A stretch of 64,000 nucleotides of DNA from a bacterium. Its GTDB lineage: Bacteria > Chloroflexota > Dormibacteria > Dormibacterales > Dormibacteraceae. This document shows positions 37,656-61,698 of this stretch, one piece after another. Under the pieces are notes generated by a model that saw only the letters and a program-made list of their open reading frames with translations, did no database searches and was not told where the DNA came from. Position 1 is the first letter of the stretch, and the number at the start of each line of letters is the position of its first letter. The translations under genes and the position numbers were made by a program. The stretch lies in the NCBI GenBank assembly GCA_004299235.1, contig SCQL01000031.1, forward strand, positions 310,001-374,000. The letters run 5' to 3'.

Positions 37656-38450
37656 GTGACTGAGAGCCCCGCCCTGGACCAGGTAGCGCTCGCGGTGGAC
37701 AGTCACGTCGTCACGCTCACCCTCAACCGCCCCGAGCAGCGCAACCCGCTGTCGGCGGCCATGCTCCGCGAGCTCGTGACGGCATTTCGATGGTGCCAGG
37801 GGGAGCCGGAGGTGCGGGTCGTGGTCGTCACGGGTGCGGGCGACCGTGCCTTCTGTGCCGGCGCCGACCTCACCAGTTTCGAGGCCGATGCCTCGGAGCT
37901 GGAGCGCCATCGCGGCCGCGACCTGTTCGTCGAGCTGTTCGCTCTGATGGCCAGCCTCGGCAAGCCGATCGTCGGCCGGATCAACGGCCATGCGCTCGCC
38001 GGCGGGCTGGGCCTCGCCGGCTCGTGCGATCTGCTGGTCGCGGTCGACACCGCCACCTTCGGCACGCCGGAGGTCAACGTGGGCGTCTGGCCGATGATGA
38101 TCCAGGCGGTCCTAGCCCGAAACCTCCCGCGCAAGACGCTCCTGGAGATGATGATGCTGGGCGACCGCTGGACGGCGACGCAGATGCAGTCGCTGGGCCT
38201 GGTCAACCGGGTCGTGACGCACGACCAGCTGGACAGCGCGGTTCGAGAGATCACCGAGAAGCTGGCCCGGAAGTCGCCGGCGGTGATGCGGCTCGGCCGC
38301 GATTCGTTCTACCGTCAGCAGGACATGGAGTTCCACGCCGCCCTCGATTACCTGCAGGGCCAGCTGACGCTGGTGACGCTGACCGAAGACTCGAAAGAAG
38401 GGATCAAGGCCTTCTTCGAGAAGCGCGAGCCGGACTTCAAGGGGCGGTGA
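37656..38450 (+). CDS. Enoyl-CoA hydratase/isomerase family protein
   Basis: 264-aa crotonase-fold protein: LNRPEQRNPLSAAML, AFCAGADLTSF (oxyanion hole) and GHALAGGLGLAGSCDL. The typical catalytic Glu of hydratases is not obvious at the second position (TPEVNVGVWPMM has one Glu). The GTG at 37656 is favoured by a TACGAT just upstream. Its TGA overlaps the start of the carboxyltransferase, as in leucine/isovalerate or geranyl-type catabolic clusters. Confidence 0.88.
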   Translation: MTESPALDQVALAVDSHVVTLTLNRPEQRNPLSAAMLRELVTAFRWCQGEPEVRVVVVTGAGDRAFCAGADLTSFEADASELERHRGRDLFVELFALMASLGKPIVGRINGHALAGGLGLAGSCDLLVAVDTATFGTPEVNVGVWPMMIQAVLARNLPRKTLLEMMMLGDRWTATQMQSLGLVNRVVTHDQLDSAVREITEKLARKSPAVMRLGRDSFYRQQDMEFHAALDYLQGQLTLVTLTEDSKEGIKAFFEKREPDFKGR

Positions 38451-47885: not shown

Positions 47886-48665
47886 TCAGGCCTTCTTTTT
47901 AGCCAGCTCACCCCCCCTGGTCTTGGCCTCTTTCATGCGGAAGGACTCGCCCTCGGTGACGACCACGACCGCGTGGTGGAGGATGCGGTCAATCATGGAA
48001 ACGGCCGTGGTCTCGTCAGGCAGGAAGTGGCCCCACTGGTCGAAGGGCCAGTGACTAGCGAGGCCCAGGCTGCGTCGCTCATAGGCGGCGGCAATGAAGC
48101 GGAAGAAGAGCTGACTTCCAGTCGGGTCGAGCGGTGCGAAGCCGAGCTCGTCGAGGATGACCAGGTCGACGCGGAGCAGGTTGTCGATTACCCGACCGAC
48201 CGAGTTGTCGGCCAGACCGCGGTAGAGCGTCTCGACGAGGTCGGATGCGGTGAAATAGCGAACACGCAGTCCGGCCTGCACGGCGGCGTGACCGACGCCA
48301 ACCAGAAGGTGAGACTTACCGGTGCCGGCGGGACCGACCAGGCAGAGGTTCTCCTTGGCGCGGATCCATTCCAGACTGGCGATGTAGTTGAATGTTGCCT
48401 GCGGCACCGACGAGGCCTGGACCTTGAAGTCGTCCAGGCTTTTGAGCACCGGAAAGCCGGCCTGCTTGATGCGGCCGCGCAGGTTGGACTCGTCGCGGGC
48501 GACAATCTCGGCCTCGATGAGCGTGCGCAAGAACTCATCCAGCGCCCAGCGTTGAGTCTTGGCCGTCTGGCAGACCTCGGGCGCGATGACCCTGACGCGG
48601 GCAAGCTTGAGTCGACGCAGTCCGGCGACCAAGTCGGGCGCCAGAGCGGCCGCCGGCGCGGTCAT
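47886..48665 (-). CDS. istB: IS21-family helper ATPase IstB
   Basis: 259-aa AAA+ ATPase: Walker A GPAGTGKSHL, Walker B VILDELGFAPLD, and the family's FRFIAAAYERRSLGLASHW. IstB assists IstA in target selection and is needed for transposition. ATG overlaps the istA stop by 4 nt. Confidence 0.93.
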   Translation of the reverse strand: MTAPAAALAPDLVAGLRRLKLARVRVIAPEVCQTAKTQRWALDEFLRTLIEAEIVARDESNLRGRIKQAGFPVLKSLDDFKVQASSVPQATFNYIASLEWIRAKENLCLVGPAGTGKSHLLVGVGHAAVQAGLRVRYFTASDLVETLYRGLADNSVGRVIDNLLRVDLVILDELGFAPLDPTGSQLFFRFIAAAYERRSLGLASHWPFDQWGHFLPDETTAVSMIDRILHHAVVVVTEGESFRMKEAKTRGGELAKKKA

Positions 48666-50191
48666 CGAACCTCCTCCAAGGCATAGGCGCTCAGAGGTCG
48701 CACGGGAACTTCAGGCAGATTCAGCTTCAAGGTCTTGCCCGGAGGTGCGGGGTTGGGTGCGAGCCAACCCGCGGCCAGGATGTCGCGCACGTCCTTGGCC
48801 TTGAAGCGGCGAAAGCGCGTCGCTCGTTCCAAGGCGGTGAGCAGCTGGTCGCGGCCCCAGCTCTGCTCCAGGCTGACGATGTCGGCCAGCTCAGCGGCCA
48901 GGCGCGAGCTGCCAGTCGCCGCTGCTGAGCGGAGGAAGGCTTCGGCTGCAGGGCCGAACGCGATGAACGCCGGCTCGGTTCCGGTGCGGACACGAATCGC
49001 CCGCGCCGGCACTCTGGGCTTGCCCTTGTAGTGCTCGTCCTTGATAGAGACCTCGCCTGGCGCCATCAGCGGATGGCGGTCGATCTGGTGACCGTCATAC
49101 GCCAACACCATCTCGTGGTCGACGACCGAAACCTCGACCACCTTGCCGACCCACTCGGTCGGCAGCGAGTAGCGCGCCGAGCCGAAGCGAATCGTCTGGG
49201 TCTTGTTCACCTTGCGCAGCTCGCCGCGGCAGAGCGCCGGCCGCAGTGACGGCAGCGGTCGCATCAGCTGACGCTCCTGCTCGAGGCGCTCAGCCGGCAC
49301 CGCCTGGGTCTCGCTGTGAAGTCGGCCGTTGACCTCGATTCCCCACAGCTTGGCCTGACGGTTGCCCTTGGCGATGTCGCCGCCGAAGTTGCCTTCCGGG
49401 ACCACCAGGTCGCGCTGGGCATAGCCGACCAGGTTTTCGACCACGCCCTTGGATTCGGGGTCGCCGCCCTCACAGAAGTCGGGCCGGAAACCGTAGTGAG
49501 CGGCGAAGCGGACGTACTCGGGATGCGGCACCACGACGTTGGCGACAATTCCGTTCTTCAGGCAGGCCATGCGGTCGCTGAGCACCACCGCCGTCACCGC
49601 CCCGAGCTCCTCGAAGCACTCGGCCAGCAGCCCCAACGTGGTTTCCCTGGTCTCGTTGTTGGCGAAGCGCACGAACCGATATCGGCTCCAGGCCAACACC
49701 GCACAGAACATGTGCAGCCGGGCCGTGATCTTGGTCCAGTCGATGACCAGGTGCTGGCCCGGCGTGGCCACCCAGGGCCGGTACAGGCGGCGCTTCTGTC
49801 GCCAGTCCGATTTCATCTTCGCCACCGCGCGGCGCAGGTTGCGCGCCGAGCCGCTGTAGCCGGCCGCCCTCGCCACCGGCACTAATCGCTTCGCCGAGAT
49901 GCGACCGTCGGTGGCTTCTACCTTCTTGGCGATGACTGCCATCACGGCATCCGTGTTCTTGGTCAGCGGACGCGGCCGCCGGATCCACGGACCGCCGGCC
50001 TGGTGTCGCTCGACTGCACGCTTGACCGTCTTGTCGGTGGTGCCGCAGGCCCGCGCGGCCGCCCGGTAGCTCCCTAGTTGGTGAAACGCATCGATGATGT
50101 TCAAGTGCTCCCTCGTCGTCTTCAATAGGTGGGTCCTCCGGCTGGGCTGGTGGGATTGAGACGTCTCCACTTTGCCCGGCCCGGGGGACAC
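48662..50191 (-). CDS. istA: IS21-family transposase IstA
   Basis: 509 aa from a GTG at 50191 (a TTG 66 nt downstream, giving KTTREHLNI, is an alternative). N-terminal HTH (YRAAARACGTTDKTVKRAV), then DDE catalytic core: D in HLVIDWTKI, D in VVLSDRMA, E in ESKGVVENL. A basic C-terminal beta-domain follows. It catalyses cut/paste or circle-based transposition with IstB. Confidence 0.92.
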   Translation of the reverse strand: MSPGPGKVETSQSHQPSRRTHLLKTTREHLNIIDAFHQLGSYRAAARACGTTDKTVKRAVERHQAGGPWIRRPRPLTKNTDAVMAVIAKKVEATDGRISAKRLVPVARAAGYSGSARNLRRAVAKMKSDWRQKRRLYRPWVATPGQHLVIDWTKITARLHMFCAVLAWSRYRFVRFANNETRETTLGLLAECFEELGAVTAVVLSDRMACLKNGIVANVVVPHPEYVRFAAHYGFRPDFCEGGDPESKGVVENLVGYAQRDLVVPEGNFGGDIAKGNRQAKLWGIEVNGRLHSETQAVPAERLEQERQLMRPLPSLRPALCRGELRKVNKTQTIRFGSARYSLPTEWVGKVVEVSVVDHEMVLAYDGHQIDRHPLMAPGEVSIKDEHYKGKPRVPARAIRVRTGTEPAFIAFGPAAEAFLRSAAATGSSRLAAELADIVSLEQSWGRDQLLTALERATRFRRFKAKDVRDILAAGWLAPNPAPPGKTLKLNLPEVPVRPLSAYALEEVR

Positions 50192-54275: not shown

Positions 54276-55019
54276 ATGGCATGCTCCGAAGTTCCCGACT
54301 GGTACCTTTCGCGGCGAATCGCCGTCGTCGACCTGGGCTCCGCAACATGGCGCAAGGCCCGAGCTGAGGTCGTACCGCCGGGCTACGCCGCCGACGAATG
54401 TTTGCGCCGACTGGCTAAGGCCGGGAAAGTCCGACGGATCGGCCGTGGACTGTATGTCCTTATCGATCCGGTGCGCGAGACCCCGCCCATCGCAATAGCC
54501 AGCACTCTGTTTGCAGACGAGCCGCACTACGTGACCACCGACGCGGCTCTTGCCTTTCACGGGGTTATCGACCAGCCAATCCGACAGATCGCGGTCGTGC
54601 TTACTCACAGCCGACGCGCGATCGACGCCGGTCCAGCAGTGGTTCGACCGGTCACGATGAGGGCGGATCGATTCACAACTTCAGATGCCTACGACACCAC
54701 CACTGAGGGCTTCAAGATCAGGGTGGCAACCCGCGATCAAGCCGTGGTCGACGCCCTGACAGAACCCGCCTGGATGGTGCATGGAGACCTCCTCGCCGAG
54801 GTGTTGGCCACATTCACCGTCGATGAGATTGAACGCACGGCATCCGCCGCAACGGCCCGGTCTAAGGCAGCCGCGCAACGCTTGGGTTACCTGCTCGAGG
54901 ATGCCGGCCGCCCGGTGGCCGATTCGCTTGCGAGCCTCCGCCCGGTGCGGGCCGTCCGGCTACGGCCCGGTCATCGGACCGGTGGACCGTACTCGACGCG
55001 TTGGCGCGTGTATGGCTGA
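54276..55019 (+). CDS. AbiEi-family antitoxin (type IV TA)
   Basis: 247 aa. N-terminal winged helix (CLRRLAKAGKVRRIGRGLYVLID) and the AbiEi C-terminal block (HYVTTDAALAFHGVIDQ, FKIRVATRDQAVVDAL). It would repress its own operon and counter the AbiEii toxin without binding it. It overlaps the toxin by 8 nt. Confidence 0.87.
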   Translation: MACSEVPDWYLSRRIAVVDLGSATWRKARAEVVPPGYAADECLRRLAKAGKVRRIGRGLYVLIDPVRETPPIAIASTLFADEPHYVTTDAALAFHGVIDQPIRQIAVVLTHSRRAIDAGPAVVRPVTMRADRFTTSDAYDTTTEGFKIRVATRDQAVVDALTEPAWMVHGDLLAEVLATFTVDEIERTASAATARSKAAAQRLGYLLEDAGRPVADSLASLRPVRAVRLRPGHRTGGPYSTRWRVYG

Positions 55020-55833
55020 CTCACGCGACCAAGAACAGATCGCGGCCGACTACAGGCGCGCCCGCGCAGCCCGCGATGTGAATGCGATGCGGCGCTTTCA
55101 GAACGAAGAAGCGTGCTTTGTCTTGCTGGCCATCCTCGAGCGCCTCGCCACCGAGAAATCGAGCTTTATCCACGGCGTCGCACTCAAGGGCGGAATCCTG
55201 ATGGCCGGCGAACTCCATTCGCCACGATCGTCCGCTGACATCGATGCCACGACCGGACACATGCAGCGGCTCGAGGCCGATCAGGTGATCGGCGACCTGC
55301 GGCGCGCTGGTCGTGCATTCAACGTGCGACCGGACGGGGAGCCGGAGCGCACCCCTGGAGGTCTGATCGTCCACTTTCGATTCGACTCGATCACCGATGC
55401 GGGTTCGGCCAAACTCGAGGTCAGCGTTCGCGAGGACCTCATCTTTGCAGTCCGCGACGCCTTCTTCGACGTGTCCGCATTCGGGCTGTCGCCGTTTGAG
55501 GTGCCTGCCGTGGCCCAAGTGGAGCTGGTCGCGGAGAAGATCCGTACCGTAGTCCAGCGGGCTCAACCTCGGGATCTGTTCGACCTGAGGTTCTACCTGG
55601 TTCAGTCGGGTTGGCATCTCGACGCGGGAGACCTACGAAAAGCCGTCGATGCCAAACTCGCACTTACTCGATACCGTCGTTGGCGCGCTGGACTGTGGCG
55701 CAATAACATCGCCGCCATCGAGAAGGCTTGGGACGAGAACCTTCTCTCGTGGATTGATCCAAACCAGCTGCCGCCATTCGACACCGCCCTCGAGGAGGTC
55801 GACCGACGACTACGCGAACTGCACCTGGATTGA
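55012..55833 (+). CDS. AbiEii-family nucleotidyltransferase toxin
   Basis: 273 aa. The nucleotidyltransferase motifs are LKGG (58-61), RSSADID with metal-binding D76 and D78, and the helical domain with DLFDLRFYL. AbiEii toxins modify cellular targets with nucleotides and can give phage resistance. It follows the XerC/D gene and precedes a repeat cluster, as expected for a mobile defence cargo. Confidence 0.87.
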   Translation: MADSRDQEQIAADYRRARAARDVNAMRRFQNEEACFVLLAILERLATEKSSFIHGVALKGGILMAGELHSPRSSADIDATTGHMQRLEADQVIGDLRRAGRAFNVRPDGEPERTPGGLIVHFRFDSITDAGSAKLEVSVREDLIFAVRDAFFDVSAFGLSPFEVPAVAQVELVAEKIRTVVQRAQPRDLFDLRFYLVQSGWHLDAGDLRKAVDAKLALTRYRRWRAGLWRNNIAAIEKAWDENLLSWIDPNQLPPFDTALEEVDRRLRELHLD

Positions 55834-55854: not shown

Positions 55855-56035
55855 GATCTGGTTGTCACGAGATCCGTTACAGACCGATCTGGTTACTACA
55901 CGACCTCATGCGGTCCAGGTTCCACAAACCGATCTGGTTGGAGCATGCAGCGGGAACCAGATCTAGGCAAAGGAAAGGCCGGAATCGTATTCGAATCCGG
56001 CCTGGTAAGGCTTCTACTCGTCCTCGATCTGGTTG
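55855..56035. repeat. GATCTGGTT repeat cluster
   Basis: Direct copies at 55855-55863, 55886-55894, 55932-55940 and 56027-56035 and one inverted copy at 55956-55964. The last one lies inside the 3' end of the 56014 gene. The spacing is not regular. Origin unknown. Confidence 0.5.
55978..56003. terminator. Bidirectional terminator-like hairpin
   Basis: GGCCGGA (55978-55984) and TCCGGCC (55997-56003) form a 7-bp stem between convergent genes. No long U-tract. Confidence 0.35.
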
Positions 56036-56328
56036 AACATCAGGCTGTCCTGGATCTCGTAGAGGGCGTCCATCGCCTCCATCACCGAGGCTGGCTTGGC
56101 CTGCGCCAGGACGATGACCTCCGGCGAGTCCTCGATCACCTTGTTGATCGCGACCGAGAGCACCGGCGGCATCTGCCGCTGGTCGGCGAGATTCAGCATC
56201 TCGAGCTCGTTCAGGAGCTTGTCGATGTGGTGCATCTTGTTCCGCCGCGCATACTTGGCCCGCTGGACGCGACGCTCGCGTGCAGTCATGTGCTCGATGG
56301 CGCGGCTGGCCTGCTTGATCATGGTCAC
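56014..56328 (-). CDS. Conserved-looking helical protein of unknown function
   Basis: 104 aa from a GTG at 56328, 9 nt after GAGGAG; an upstream ATG at 56349 overlaps a TAAAAT -10. All-helical, basic N-half (ARERRVQRAKYARRNKMHHIDKLLNELEML) and acidic C-end (FNQIEDE). No family recognised. It is divergent to the SufR-like regulator. Confidence 0.55.
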   Translation of the reverse strand: MTMIKQASRAIEHMTARERRVQRAKYARRNKMHHIDKLLNELEMLNLADQRQMPPVLSVAINKVIEDSPEVIVLAQAKPASVMEAMDALYEIQDSLMFNQIEDE

Positions 56329-56411
56329 GGTTCTTTTCTCCTCAGCCATTTTAAGGCCTCACAGCCTTTTGTCAAGGACCATATGTAATAAATGCCCAAG
56401 GGTGTGGTAGC

Positions 56412-57074
56412 ATGGCGCGCCAGCGAGCGGATGAGCCCAACATGATCGCCGGCCATTCGACCCGCATGGAAGTCCTGGAGCTGCTCCGGCGCAGGGGCCG
56501 CTGTAGCGCCGAGACCATGGCCGCGGACCTTGGCGTGACGCCCAACGCGGTGCGCCAGCACCTGACCAACCTCGAGCGAGACGGTTTCGTCGTCAGCCAC
56601 CCCGAGCGGAGCCGCCGCGGGCGGCCGGCCCTCCTCTTCTCGCTGACGGAGCGCGCCGACTCGGTCTTTCCCAAGCGCTACGGCCAGCTCGCGACCATGG
56701 TGCTGCAGGAGGTCCAGGAGATGGGCGGCCCAGCGGCCCTCGACGAGGTCTTCGAGCGCGTCGCCACCCGGCACGCGGCCGCAATCGCGCCCGACCTCCA
56801 CGGCCTCGAATTTGACGAGAAGCTGCGCCGGGTGGTGGCGTGGATCGGGCGGGCCGGGACGCTCGCCGAGCAGACCGAGACTGCGGAAGGAGTTAAGGTG
56901 ATGATTCACAACTGCCCCTTCCGCAACACCGCGCTCAAGTTCCCCCAGGTCTGCGCCATCACGCCCCACCTCATGTCGCAGCTGCTGGGCACAGCGGTCT
57001 CGCAGTCGGACTCCATCCACCGTCACGACCCCTACTGCTCGTTTGTCGTCCAGCGGCCTTCCGGCGCTCAGTAG
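56412..57074 (+). CDS. Second SufR-like Fe-S transcriptional regulator
   Basis: 220 aa. Winged helix at about 18-65 (CSAETMAADLGVTPNAVRQHLTNLERDG), and a C-terminal metal-type half with three cysteines in HNCPF, QVCAI and DPYCSF, the SufR layout. It shares architecture with the sufR at 56 but has its own cysteine spacing. No suf gene is near. Its 3' end overlaps the YjeF_N gene by 32 nt. Confidence 0.75.
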   Translation: MARQRADEPNMIAGHSTRMEVLELLRRRGRCSAETMAADLGVTPNAVRQHLTNLERDGFVVSHPERSRRGRPALLFSLTERADSVFPKRYGQLATMVLQEVQEMGGPAALDEVFERVATRHAAAIAPDLHGLEFDEKLRRVVAWIGRAGTLAEQTETAEGVKVMIHNCPFRNTALKFPQVCAITPHLMSQLLGTAVSQSDSIHRHDPYCSFVVQRPSGAQ

Positions 57075-57735
57075 CCGGCAAGTCAAGGAGGTCGACGCGC
57101 TCGCGTGGGAGCGCTTCGGCATCTCGGTCGACTGGTTGATGGAGGCGGCCGGCTGGCAGGTCGCGCGGTCTTGCCCGGTGCCGGCGGCCGTCGTCTGCGG
57201 CGTCGGCAACAACGCCGGTGACGGCCTGGCGGCCGCCCGTCACCTGCACCGCTGGGGCAGGCTCGCGAGCGTCTGCTGCGTCGATACGGGCCGGTTGCGC
57301 GAGGCCGCCGGCCGGGAGCTCGAAAGCCTGCGCAGGATCGGGGTCGCCGTCTCCGGCGAGCTCCGGCTCGATGGCGCTGAGATGGTCGTCGACGCCATCT
57401 TCGGGACCGGGCTCTCCCGGCCGCCGGAAGGCCGTTTTGCCGCCTGCATCGAGGCGATCAACGCATCGGGTCTGCCGGTGCTTGCGGTCGACCTGCCGTC
57501 GGGGCTCGACGCCGACTCCGGCGTCGCCTACGCTCCAACTGTGAAGGCTTCGACGACGGTCACGCTCGGGCTGCCCAAACCCGGCCTACTCAAGGGAGAC
57601 GGCCCCGGACTCGCGGGCGAGGTCTGGGTGGCGGATATCGGCGTTCCGTTCGAGGCCTACGCCGCGCTGGGATTGGATGTCCCGCCTCACCTCTTCTCGG
57701 CCCAGGATCGGGTGCGTTTGGACGCGATCCGATGA
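57043..57735 (+). CDS. NAD(P)HX epimerase domain protein (YjeF_N)
   Basis: 230 aa, TTG start inside the upstream gene. Family motifs GNNAGDGLAAARHL, VVDAIFGTGLSRPP and VDLPSGLDADSG are present. It epimerises damaged NAD(P)H hydrates. The C-terminal ADP-dependent dehydratase domain usually fused to it is absent, so the dehydratase must be elsewhere. Stop overlaps the next gene by 4 nt. Confidence 0.85.
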   Translation: MSSSGLPALSSRQVKEVDALAWERFGISVDWLMEAAGWQVARSCPVPAAVVCGVGNNAGDGLAAARHLHRWGRLASVCCVDTGRLREAAGRELESLRRIGVAVSGELRLDGAEMVVDAIFGTGLSRPPEGRFAACIEAINASGLPVLAVDLPSGLDADSGVAYAPTVKASTTVTLGLPKPGLLKGDGPGLAGEVWVADIGVPFEAYAALGLDVPPHLFSAQDRVRLDAIR

Positions 57736-58700
57736 CCCGCGAGGTGGTTTGGGATCGGGGCGTCTCGCTCCCCGGACACCGGCTGTGGCTCGATCCGCTG
57801 GTGGTGCGCACGTTCGCCTTCATCTCGCACGCCCACACCGACCACGCACGCCGGCACAAAGAGGCGCTGCTGACACCCCAGACGCTGGCCCTGATCCCCG
57901 AAGCCCGCCGGCCGCGCGGGTGGCGGATGCTCGGCTACCGGGAGCCGATGCGGCGCGGACAGGCCACCGTCACGCTTTACCCGGCGGGCCACATGCTCGG
58001 ATCGGCACAGCTTTGCTTCGAGCACGCCGGGACGAGCCTGCTGTACACGGGCGACATCAAGCTGCGCCAGCCGGGCGGGGACGCGCCCACTTTCGTGCCC
58101 AGGACGGACGTGCTGGTGCTCGAGAGCACGTACGGGCGGCCGCACTTCCGCTTTGGCGACCCGGACTCGACTGTCGAAGCCATGGCGCGATGGTGCCGCC
58201 GAGCGATCGACAGCCGCGTGACGCCGGTGCTGCTGTGCCACGCGCTCGGCAAGGCCGAGGAGGTCATGCTCGCGCTGTCGCCTTATGGCTTCACGTTCGC
58301 GCTGGAGAAGCGATGCGCGCCGTATGCGCGCGAGTACGCGACGGCCGGGCGGCCGCTGCCCCAATGGGTGGAGCTGGATGGGCAGGCCGAGCCCGGGCGT
58401 GTGGTGATCGCACCGCCCGCGGGCAAAGACGAGGTCCGCAGGCTCGATCGCTACCGGACGGCGCTGGTGTCCGGATGGGCGAAGGACGCCGAGTTCGCCC
58501 GCCTCTTCGGCGCGGACGCCACCTTCGATTTGTCCGACCACTGCGACTTCGATGAGCTGATGGAGGTCGTCGAGCGTTCAGGCGCCGACCAGGTCTACAC
58601 GGTGCACGGCTACACCGAGGACCTCGCGCGTCACCTGCGCAAGCGCGGCATCCGGGCCTCAGCCCTCGAGGCGACTGAACAGCTGGCTCTCGCGCTCTAG
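57732..58700 (+). CDS. Ligase-associated MBL-fold exonuclease
   Basis: 322 aa metallo-beta-lactamase/beta-CASP-like protein. HAHTDHARR, AGHMLGSAQL, YTGDIKLR and the terminal LSDHCDFDEL...HGYTEDLA are as in putative mRNA 3'-end processing/ligase-associated exonucleases (Exo). In many bacteria this protein is encoded with an ATP-dependent ligase, as here. Confidence 0.82.
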   Translation: MTREVVWDRGVSLPGHRLWLDPLVVRTFAFISHAHTDHARRHKEALLTPQTLALIPEARRPRGWRMLGYREPMRRGQATVTLYPAGHMLGSAQLCFEHAGTSLLYTGDIKLRQPGGDAPTFVPRTDVLVLESTYGRPHFRFGDPDSTVEAMARWCRRAIDSRVTPVLLCHALGKAEEVMLALSPYGFTFALEKRCAPYAREYATAGRPLPQWVELDGQAEPGRVVIAPPAGKDEVRRLDRYRTALVSGWAKDAEFARLFGADATFDLSDHCDFDELMEVVERSGADQVYTVHGYTEDLARHLRKRGIRASALEATEQLALAL

Positions 58701-58711
58701 GGGCCGGAGAC

Positions 58712-59068
58712 TCAGCGCAAAGCCCAACCGGAGCGCAGGACCGCCCGGCGCAGGTCGGCGTCGACCGCCGCCGCGTCGCTGAGCCCGGTCAGCAGCAGGT
58801 CGACCCATGCGGTCAGGTCGACCGGAGGCACCAGTTCCAACCCTTCGCTCTTGACCCTGGCGCGAAAGCTCCTGCCTGCGGCTTCGATCATCACCTCGGT
58901 GATCGGGCCGCGGTTGAGATGACCGCGCTTGACCTTGGCGATCGGGACCCGCTCGACGAGGTAGTCGAGCAGCTCGGTCGAATCCCGCTCTTCACTCGTG
59001 GGCACGTGGCAGAAGACGCAGGCGCCCTCGAGCGGTAGAGTTGGCGCCCCGCAGACGGAGCAGTTCAA
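58712..59068 (-). CDS. Zinc-ribbon protein of unknown function
   Basis: 118 aa. N-terminal CSVC...CVFC knuckles (residues 3-20) and an alpha-beta C-terminal domain. It overlaps the 70-aa gene upstream by 4 nt. It may belong to the ligase module it is embedded in. Confidence 0.6.
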   Translation of the reverse strand: MNCSVCGAPTLPLEGACVFCHVPTSEERDSTELLDYLVERVPIAKVKRGHLNRGPITEVMIEAAGRSFRARVKSEGLELVPPVDLTAWVDLLLTGLSDAAAVDADLRRAVLRSGWALR

Positions 59069-59277
59069 TCCGTGTAGCGCGTGATCGATTGGTCCTCACG
59101 CCGCTTCTCGGACCGGTACAGGGGGCAGTCTTCGAAGTTGCGGACGCAGATGGGCGGGCTGTCGCTCAACGCGTACTTGCGCTTCGAGCGCCGGTCGACA
59201 TGACAGTCGAATCGATAGATGCGCAGCACCGAGCGCCGTTCCTTCAGGTATTCCTCGAGAAACGGACAGCGACGCAT
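59065..59277 (-). CDS. Small Cys-rich protein
   Basis: 70 aa with Cys at 4, 25, 44 and 51 (RRCPFLEEYL, FDCHVD, PPICVRN, EDCPLYR), the right number for one zinc or Fe-S site. Basic. Start ATG is 8 nt after TATCGT, opposite the ligase gene. Confidence 0.55.
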   Translation of the reverse strand: MRRCPFLEEYLKERRSVLRIYRFDCHVDRRSKRKYALSDSPPICVRNFEDCPLYRSEKRREDQSITRYTD

Positions 59278-59284
59278 CGAGAAT

Positions 59285-59291
59285 TACGATA
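59285..59291. promoter_or_regulatory. Shared -10 heptamer (Cys-rich protein / DNA ligase)
   Basis: TACGATA reads TACGAT on plus (18 nt before the ligase ATG) and TATCGT on minus (8 nt before 59277). Confidence 0.45.
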
Positions 59292-59308
59292 GGCCACCGT
59301 GCTCGGAC

Positions 59309-60964
59309 ATGCTTGATTTCGCGCGAGCCGCCGCGGCGGTCGGAGCCACCTCCGCCACGCTCGAGAAGACACGCCTCCTCGCCGCCTACCTGCGAACCCT
59401 CGACCCCGACGACCTCCGACGGGCCGCGGTGTTCCTGACCGGGCGTGCTTTCAGCCCATCCCAGCGACGCACGCTCGGACTCGGCTGGTCGGCCGTGAGC
59501 AAGGTGGTGTCGAGGATTTCGGGCCGAGCGCCCGAGGAGCTCGACTTGCTGTTTCAAAAGCACTCCGACCTCGGTGACTGGGCGGGCGAGGCGCTCACCG
59601 GCCGGACTCAGCCGGTTCACGTGTCGCTGGAGGAGGTGGCGGGAACGCTCGAATCGATCCGGACCGCGCGCGGGGGGGCGAAAACCGCGCCTCTCGAGCA
59701 CCTCGTTCGACGGCTCGATCCGGAGGCGGCGAGGTTCCTGATCAAGATCATCGCGGGCGAGCTGCGCATCGGCTTGAGCGAGGGCCTGGTGGAGGCCGCG
59801 GTCGCCGAAGCGTTCGCGGTCCCGATCACGCAGGTCAAGCGCGTCCATCTCATCACCGGCGACATCGGCGAGACGGCGGTGCGGTGCAAGCTTGGAACGC
59901 TCGATACCACCGCGGTCACCCTGTTCCAGCCGGTGCGCTTCATGCTCGCCAGCCCCGTCGAGACCGCCGCCGAGGCCTTCGACCGGATGGGCGCGGACAG
60001 GGTTTGGACGGAGGAGAAGTACGACGGCGTCCGCTGCCAGCTCCATCGCCAGGGCGCTCGGGTCGAGCTCTTCTCGCGTGACCTGAAGGAGACGACCACC
60101 GCGTTCCCGGAGCTGGCGGAGAAGGCTCAGAGCATCGGCCACGACGTCCTCCTCGACGGCGAGGTGCTGGCACACCGCGCCGGTCGTGTGCTGCGCTTCT
60201 TCGAGCTCCAGCACCGCCTGGGCCGCAAGCAGGTGGCGGCCGAGCTGAGGCGCGAGGTGCCTGTGGCGCTGGTGATCTTCGACCTGCTGTGGCTCGACGG
60301 CCGCTCACTGCTGGACGAGCCGCTCGACCGGCGCCGCAAGCTGCTCGAGAGCTTGGGGGTTGAGCATCCCTTCCTCCTGGCCAGGGTGGAGGAGGCGACC
60401 GGCCCCGAAGACCTCGAGCGGATCTTCGCCGAGACTCGCGCGCGGGGCAACGAAGGGTTGATGGTCAAGGACCCGCTGAGCCCTTACACGCCGGGGCGCC
60501 GCGGGCTGGCCTGGCTGAAGCTGAAGCGGCCGCTGGCGACACTCGACGTGGTCGTGACCGCGGTCGAGTGGGGACACGGCAAACGCAAGGGGGTTCTCTC
60601 CGACTACACGTTCGCGGTCAAGGACGCCGGCGCCGACCGCCTCGTCAACGTCGGCAAGGCTTACACCGGCCTCACCGACGCCGAGATCGCCACCATGACC
60701 GAGCGGTTCCTCGCCCTCACCATCGAAAACCTCGGCCGAGCGCGCGTGGTGCGCCCCGAAGTCGTGCTCGAGGTCGCATTCGATTCCATCCAGCACTCGG
60801 GCCGCCACCTGAGCGGCTATGCGCTTCGCTTTCCGCGCATCGTCCGCATCCGCGACGACAAGCCGGTGGAGGAGATCGACACGCTCGAGCGCGTCGCCGA
60901 GCTGTATGACCGCTATTTCGGGGAGAAGACCGAGGTCTCGCTGTCGGAGGTCGCAGAGACATGA
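59309..60964 (+). CDS. ATP-dependent DNA ligase
   Basis: 551 aa of the archaeal/eukaryal LigI-like type with an N-terminal DNA-binding domain. Adenylated lysine K237 in EEKYDGVRCQ, DGEVL, EGLMVKD, and LAWLKLKR are intact, followed by an OB domain. It is distinct from the NAD-dependent LigA and probably works in repair. The ATG at 59309 is preferred over in-frame upstream sequence, which overlaps the minus-strand gene. Confidence 0.93.
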   Translation: MLDFARAAAAVGATSATLEKTRLLAAYLRTLDPDDLRRAAVFLTGRAFSPSQRRTLGLGWSAVSKVVSRISGRAPEELDLLFQKHSDLGDWAGEALTGRTQPVHVSLEEVAGTLESIRTARGGAKTAPLEHLVRRLDPEAARFLIKIIAGELRIGLSEGLVEAAVAEAFAVPITQVKRVHLITGDIGETAVRCKLGTLDTTAVTLFQPVRFMLASPVETAAEAFDRMGADRVWTEEKYDGVRCQLHRQGARVELFSRDLKETTTAFPELAEKAQSIGHDVLLDGEVLAHRAGRVLRFFELQHRLGRKQVAAELRREVPVALVIFDLLWLDGRSLLDEPLDRRRKLLESLGVEHPFLLARVEEATGPEDLERIFAETRARGNEGLMVKDPLSPYTPGRRGLAWLKLKRPLATLDVVVTAVEWGHGKRKGVLSDYTFAVKDAGADRLVNVGKAYTGLTDAEIATMTERFLALTIENLGRARVVRPEVVLEVAFDSIQHSGRHLSGYALRFPRIVRIRDDKPVEEIDTLERVAELYDRYFGEKTEVSLSEVAET

Positions 60965-61698
60965 AGCTCACCTTCATGGGCACGGCCGGCGCCCGGTTCA
61001 TGGTCGCCAAGCAGCTCGCGGCGTCCGGCGGTCTTTACGTCGAAGACGGGGACGCGCGCATCAGCCTCGACCCCGGGCCGGGGGCCATCGTGCAGTATGC
61101 GAAGCGCAAGGTCGACCTGACCAAGTTGGACGCCATCGTCCTCAGCCACCGTCACCTCGACCACTCCGGCGACGTCAACGTGATGATCGAGGCGATGACC
61201 GAGGGCGGCTTCCGCCGCCGCGGCCGGCTTTTCTGCCCGTCCGACGCCCTCGACGACGACCCCGTGGTGCTCAACTATCTCCGCCGGTTTCCGCAGGAGG
61301 TGGTGCGCCTGCAGCCGGAAAGCTCGTACGCCGTCAACGGCCTCTCCTTCACCACGAGCCCGCGACACATCCACCAGGCCGAGACGTATGGGTTCCGTTT
61401 CGGCGACAAGCTCGGTTGGGTCACCGACTCCGCCTACTACGACGGCATCGCCGAACAGCACAGGGCCGAGGTGATGGTGATCCACCTCGTCCTGATGCAG
61501 TGCCGGCCCGAGCTGCCGCATCTGTGCCTCGAGGACGCCGAACGCATCATCCGTGAGGCCAAGCCGCGCCTGGCGATCCTCACGCACTTCGGGATGACCG
61601 TCTGGCGGGCCCATCCGTGGGAGCTCGCCGCCGACCTGACGCAGAGACTGGGGACGGAGGTCAAAGCCGCGCGTGACGGGATGCGCGTCGAGATCTGA
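60961..61698 (+). CDS. MBL-fold metallohydrolase (RNase Z/PhnP-like)
   Basis: 245 aa, ATG overlapping the ligase stop by 4 nt. LSHRHLDHSGD, TSPRHIHQAETYGF, VTDSAYYDG and LTHFGMT supply the metal ligands of the RNase Z/PhnP-like group. Second MBL enzyme of the ligase module; a nuclease or phosphodiesterase role is likely. Confidence 0.83.
   Translation: MKLTFMGTAGARFMVAKQLAASGGLYVEDGDARISLDPGPGAIVQYAKRKVDLTKLDAIVLSHRHLDHSGDVNVMIEAMTEGGFRRRGRLFCPSDALDDDPVVLNYLRRFPQEVVRLQPESSYAVNGLSFTTSPRHIHQAETYGFRFGDKLGWVTDSAYYDGIAEQHRAEVMVIHLVLMQCRPELPHLCLEDAERIIREAKPRLAILTHFGMTVWRAHPWELAADLTQRLGTEVKAARDGMRVEI

Follow-up and report, generated by a model that had tools for sequence, protein, structure and literature searches.

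Joint occurrence of an archaeal-type DNA ligase and a small cysteine protein in a family of Dormibacterota: a candidate end-processing and sealing module

In a family of soil bacteria of the Dormibacterota, an archaeal-type ATP-dependent DNA ligase (LIG) and a cysteine protein of 118 residues (P118) occupy an identical set of 39 of 42 genomes. Their genes lie in a 64,000-nt window of a metagenome-assembled genome of 2.87 Mb (GenBank assembly GCA_004299235.1, contig SCQL01000031.1, positions 310,001 to 374,000), where all five genes that a first-pass annotation had read as a variant repair module are present: a forward gene for a metallo-beta-lactamase (MBL)/beta-CASP nuclease (EXO), a reverse pair encoding P118 and the four-cysteine protein P70, and a forward pair encoding LIG and a second MBL enzyme, MBL2. 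We posit, with about an even chance of being right, that LIG and P118, joined by EXO, make up a module for DNA end processing and sealing in which P118 is a dedicated accessory, P70 is tied to LIG, and the place of MBL2 is doubtful. EXO would trim 5' ends and LIG would then seal the nick; P118, a putative zinc-ribbon protein, would serve LIG as a dedicated accessory factor, linking it as an adaptor to DNA or the nuclease; P70 would be expressed from a symmetric -10 element in common with LIG and would probably be a metal- or Fe-S-binding auxiliary; and MBL2 would be a co-transcribed neighbour with a doubtful part in repair. We infer the repair role from the homology of EXO and LIG alone and, likewise indirectly, the biochemistry, promoter activity and metal binding that this scheme supposes.

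Evidence for the association comes from 101 related genomes, comprising the 42 of the same family (f1) and 25, 18 and 16 genomes of three sister families (f2, f3 and f4, respectively). Within f1, P70 is found in 41 of the 42 genomes, and the genes are linked almost without fail: P118 with LIG, P70 with LIG, and EXO with P118 in 39/39 cases each, and MBL2 with LIG in 36/38, the misses being one genome in which the ligase runs off the contig end (G040) and one with MBL2 on another contig (G030). A further genome, G024, fell outside the judgement on LIG and P118, its MBL2 contig being 3192 bases long and ending there. Linkage of both small cysteine genes and of the second MBL gene to the ligase, on which the first-pass annotation had staked its proposal, is thus borne out within the family. 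P118 turned up in f1 alone (39/101 relatives), and it is present in every f1 genome that has this ligase.

The remaining two f1 genomes, G011 and G021 of genus g12, lack LIG and P118 and retain the intervening P70, with P70 and MBL2 on one contig and EXO kept as well; the one ligase that they keep is more distant (39-43% identity) and lies elsewhere in the genome. Two trees, one built from five locus proteins and the other from rpoB, place g12 within the family, so the absence reads as a loss, and LIG and P118 were probably lost jointly. It coincides with loss of the 4-nt overlap between EXO and the upstream epimerase gene.

P118 and P70 are real genes, given their homologs in 39/42 and 41/42 family genomes and their low dN/dS: median pairwise values of 0.25 for P118 and 0.22 for P70 (related pairs, dS up to 1.5) indicate purifying selection. 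An alignment of 36 P118 sequences contains 25 invariant columns, the head carrying CxxC-CxxC without variation and the tail, also conserved, closing with GWxLR; the AF2 model (pLDDT 92, pTM 0.85) predicts an N-terminal zinc-ribbon-like head followed by an alpha-beta(4)-alpha-alpha domain. VIA-align comparisons of the C-terminal domain with the RWD/UBC-like fold gave some RWD and UEV rows, all with Z at most 3.4, and these were not used. P70 has 18 invariant columns among 41 sequences, including four invariant cysteines in the motif CPYLE ... DCHVD ... PPxC ... CxLY; its AF2 model is poor (pLDDT 61) and unfit for a fold search. Neither protein matched a Pfam family above cut-off or any PHROG, and on the latter ground a phage origin was rejected. 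In a sample of 301 genomes of the phylum, P118 was found in 16 f1 genomes; four weak partial matches elsewhere (G113, G123, G247 and G310; E 2e-4 to 2e-3) were treated as chance. P70 reaches further, into f1, f2 and f3 (76/101 relatives at E 0.1, G024 among them marginally) and 30 of the 301 phylum genomes, one marginally; its relatives with names belong to Candidatus Dormibacterota or Chloroflexi, and a match in G274 (E 7e-4) was again attributed to chance.

P70 and LIG diverge from a short gap that carries a conserved symmetric element. We compared 34 distinct gap sequences, obtained from 50 loci by merging identical gaps, dropping loci without both genes, and excluding one with a broken ligase start (L109, in G006). 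TACGATA is present in 33 of them and TACCATA in the remaining one, and 27 of the 34 gaps are 17-34 bp long. The pattern TANNNTA is legible as a -10 element on either strand, and among 240 upstream regions, which are homologous and not independent, 38 of 91 occurrences of TANNNT end 6-10 nt upstream of the start codon. A comparable spacing between -10 element and start is described for leaderless genes in PMC3160421, and symmetric -10 elements that serve both strands are a known kind of promoter, with start-site spacings of 18 and 23 bp in PMC12825309 (see also Warman et al.). The P70-LIG gap resembles these bidirectional promoters in its short -10 element legible on both strands between divergent genes and in its length, near the spacings given there; it differs in being recognized by sequence, in an uncultured lineage, and in its near-leaderless spacing to P70. 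The conserved symmetric TACGATA, the position of TANNNT before starts, and the existence of such promoters together make it likely that P70 and LIG share one promoter, in line with what the first-pass annotation had proposed for the small cysteine genes and the ligase. A damage-response operator was considered and rejected: besides the copy in the gap, the window holds just one more TACGATA, 5 nt before the start of an unrelated gene at 37656, which makes a generic -10 element likelier. Flanking the gap, P70-P118 and LIG-MBL2 constitute two divergent units, the genes of the latter overlapping by 4 nt in 13/18 cases and lying 4-49 nt apart in the others. In the window, 4-nt overlaps join P70 to P118, LIG to MBL2, and the epimerase gene to EXO, and the SufR-like regulator gene overlaps the epimerase gene by 32 nt. 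The regulator, epimerase and EXO genes likely make up one operon.

Beyond the family, P70 tracks LIG across the class. For this count we took as LIG orthologs those matches with identity of 45% or more and an E-value no higher than 1e-40, a threshold of our own choosing that was applied by eye, and the counts hold among the matches listed. In f2, P70 and LIG are both present in 16 of 25 genomes and both missing from nine, with none mixed, even though the two genes are unlinked in the f2 genomes mapped; f4 has neither in any of its 16 genomes; and f3 has P70 in 18/18 and LIG in 14/18. On an rpoB tree, which took 19/25 genomes of f2, 7/16 of f4, 5/18 of f3 and 9/42 of f1, chosen from genomes with a listed match, the joint absences fall into four groups; with the backbone weakly supported, this amounts to about two to four joint losses. 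EXO and LIG occur together in f1 and scattered in f3, where each of EXO, LIG and P70 has an unrelated context of its own (in G043: L220, L114 and L132). EXO was found at E 1e-20 in a single f2 genome, G064, where it directly adjoins LIG (L124) in a layout that differs from that of f1. As a partner of the ligase, P118 has the best case, P70 a fair one and MBL2 a poor one, MBL2 probably being merely a neighbour.

The enzymatic core looks ordinary. EXO qualifies as an MBL/beta-CASP nuclease, with RMMBL above cut-off and Lactamase_B_2 slightly below; HxHxDH and the later motifs are legible in it by eye, and its PDB matches include CPSF73 and TTHA0252. It aligns near full length with TIGR04122 (model positions 6-321 of 326) at 195.1 bits, under the cut-off of 325. 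In LIG, PF04675, PF01068 and PF04679 and the superfamily model TIGR00574 all exceed their cut-offs, and the protein matches PDB 3gde (E 2e-96), an archaeal ligase; translation likely starts at the ATG at 59309 rather than at 59219, as in a mechanical list of open reading frames. LIG is also near full length to TIGR04120, at 327.1 bits against a cut-off of 400. PRK03180 and PRK09247 both outscore that model, and PRK03180, the model of LigB-type ligases linked to mycobacterial LigB, gives the top NCBIfam score (367 bits); LIG resembles these bacterial ATP ligases in its best model and departs from them in falling under the cut-off of 641. MBL2 has PDB matches to 6kns and 3py5. PADLOC-DB models searched with the five locus proteins at E 0.1 returned no match, and an anti-phage defence system was rejected on that ground. 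Against this core, P118 and P70 stand out as uncharacterized, lineage-specific proteins.

The known exonuclease-ligase cluster includes Lhr-Core and MPE; this Lhr-Core/MPE/Exo/Lig repair gene cluster of bacteria (TIGR04120-04123) was reportedly described by Ejaz and Shuman in 2018 and 2019. Like that cluster, the Dormibacterota locus has an ATP-dependent DNA ligase paired to a beta-CASP exonuclease, but it has neither Lhr-Core nor MPE, its EXO and LIG score under the family cut-offs and occupy separate transcription units, and it includes instead two lineage-specific small cysteine proteins and a second MBL enzyme. The first-pass annotation had noted the missing helicase and phosphoesterase, and both are indeed missing from the locus. 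In the genome that bears it, the best match to TIGR04121 (Lhr-Core) is a distant one (454.3 bits against 850, in a 1461-aa frame on contig C2), and TIGR04123 (MPE) finds no match. The locus falls outside the curated system; by homology it should work as an exonuclease-ligase pair. According to PMC8301817, MPE lies near blhr in 276/319 genomes. Could the locus be what is left of such a cluster once helicase and phosphoesterase had been lost? That TIGR04122 and TIGR04120 match EXO and LIG distantly and along almost their whole length would fit, yet both proteins fall under the curated cut-offs, two other ligase models outscore TIGR04120 on LIG, and TIGR04123 is above cut-off in 0/101 relatives (weak matches in 14/101), which leaves no trace of an earlier complete cluster in the class; we regard such degeneration as improbable.

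A more serious alternative is that the five genes belong to a conserved housekeeping string with no joint function, unrelated genes being packed tightly and kept so by family-level synteny. The surrounding ~20 kb is also syntenic, with XerC-like, SufR-like, epimerase, antiporter and ClpP genes, the antiporter, ClpP and XerC-like genes and others flanking the cassette in many mapped f1 loci; adjacency inside one family is accordingly weak evidence for a module. EXO, moreover, sits in a different operon from LIG: it is translationally coupled to the NAD(P)HX-epimerase gene, by a 4-nt overlap in 18/20 mapped f1 genomes (the exceptions being G011 and G021), and MBL2, EXO and P70 outlive LIG and P118 in g12, while P70 and EXO occupy other loci in the sister families. 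The idea that all of these genes act as one unit, a part of the first-pass reading, finds no support in these observations, whereas its linkage within the family and its promoter element are supported. Other points weigh against even the reduced module: the joint loss in g12 is one event; P70 survives without LIG in the two g12 genomes and stands without a LIG ortholog in three f3 genomes (G045, G055 and G065), LIG in G063, a 41% fragment, being counted as absent, all among the matches listed; in f2 and f3, P70 neighbours a gene for a thiolase, a response regulator, an M55 peptidase or an FAD oxidoreductase; and the P118 fold matches nothing confidently in the PDB or among viral structures, and Foldseek gave no match at 0.001. 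A mere gene string, however, does not explain why LIG and P118 occupy identical genomes and vanish together around a retained P70, why P70 and LIG co-occur in f2 though unlinked in those mapped, or why EXO and LIG are adjacent in another layout in G064, and we consider it possible but on the unlikely side.

P70 could instead be a small metal or redox protein of general metabolism that has only its promoter in common with LIG, the true module being LIG and P118, perhaps with EXO. Its retention without LIG in g12 argues for this, as does an M55 D-aminopeptidase gene beside P70 in four f1 genomes (G004, G012, G013 and G021) and two of f2 (G044 and G064), for example at L097 4763-5341 and L130 7819-8652; the unmixed pattern in f2, the lack of both genes in f4, and joint absences in four groups of the rpoB tree, weak as its backbone is, argue against it. 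This alternative is plausible, if somewhat short of even; it is a sub-case of the end-processing and sealing module that we favour, so that confidence in the two overlaps. A bolder form of our reading, in which P118 and P70 are new lineage-specific families of dedicated accessories to an archaeal-type ligase, within an exonuclease-ligase system free of helicase and phosphoesterase and served by a single symmetric promoter, we offer only tentatively, as rather doubtful. The accessory proteins that serve ATP-dependent ligases in bacteria are little known. Should P118 or P70 prove to be such a protein, an uncultured soil phylum would supply a testable ligase partner, and an exonuclease-ligase pair would be seen to work without the usual helicase and phosphoesterase; the patterns of joint loss and co-occurrence point to particular partners. 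Literature listings for Dormibacter and DNA ligase or DNA repair held nothing on this locus.

Table. Features of the EXO-LIG region, in window coordinates
Feature	Coordinates	Strand	Remarks
SufR-like winged-helix regulator	56412..57074	+	heads the likely EXO operon; TIGR02702 74.7 bits, below cut-off of 178.8
NAD(P)HX epimerase, YjeF_N domain only	57043..57735	+	PF03853 and TIGR00197 above cut-off
EXO, metallo-beta-lactamase/beta-CASP nuclease, ligase-associated type	57732..58700	+	TIGR04122, below cut-off
P118, cysteine protein	58712..59068	-	TTG start; CxxC...CxxC; matches no known family
P70, four-cysteine protein	59065..59277	-	matches no known family
Predicted divergent P70-LIG promoter region	59278..59308	.	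31-bp gap; TACGATA at 59285-59291
LIG, archaeal-type ATP-dependent DNA ligase	59309..60964	+	DNA_ligase_A_N, _M, _C
MBL2, RNase Z/PhnP-like metallo-beta-lactamase hydrolase	60961..61698	+	PF12706 3e-21

Several features of the window lie outside the module. The SufR-like gene that heads the EXO operon is far from a SUF-like operon at the window start (its SUF genes named by eye), which has a regulator-like gene of its own at 56-679. Divergent from the SufR-like gene, 56014-56349 encodes a conserved 111-aa protein that has no Pfam match and was found in 19 of 41 mapped sequences. An AbiEi/AbiEii-type toxin-antitoxin pair at 54276-55833 (PF09407, PF13338, PF08843) adjoins the XerC-like recombinase gene, relatives having other genes there. 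Farther upstream, an IS21-type transposase pair (IstB and a rve/Mu-type transposase) occupies 47886-50125, and beside it the 4 kb from 43.8 to 47.9 kb are free of called genes, within the lowest-GC part of the window.

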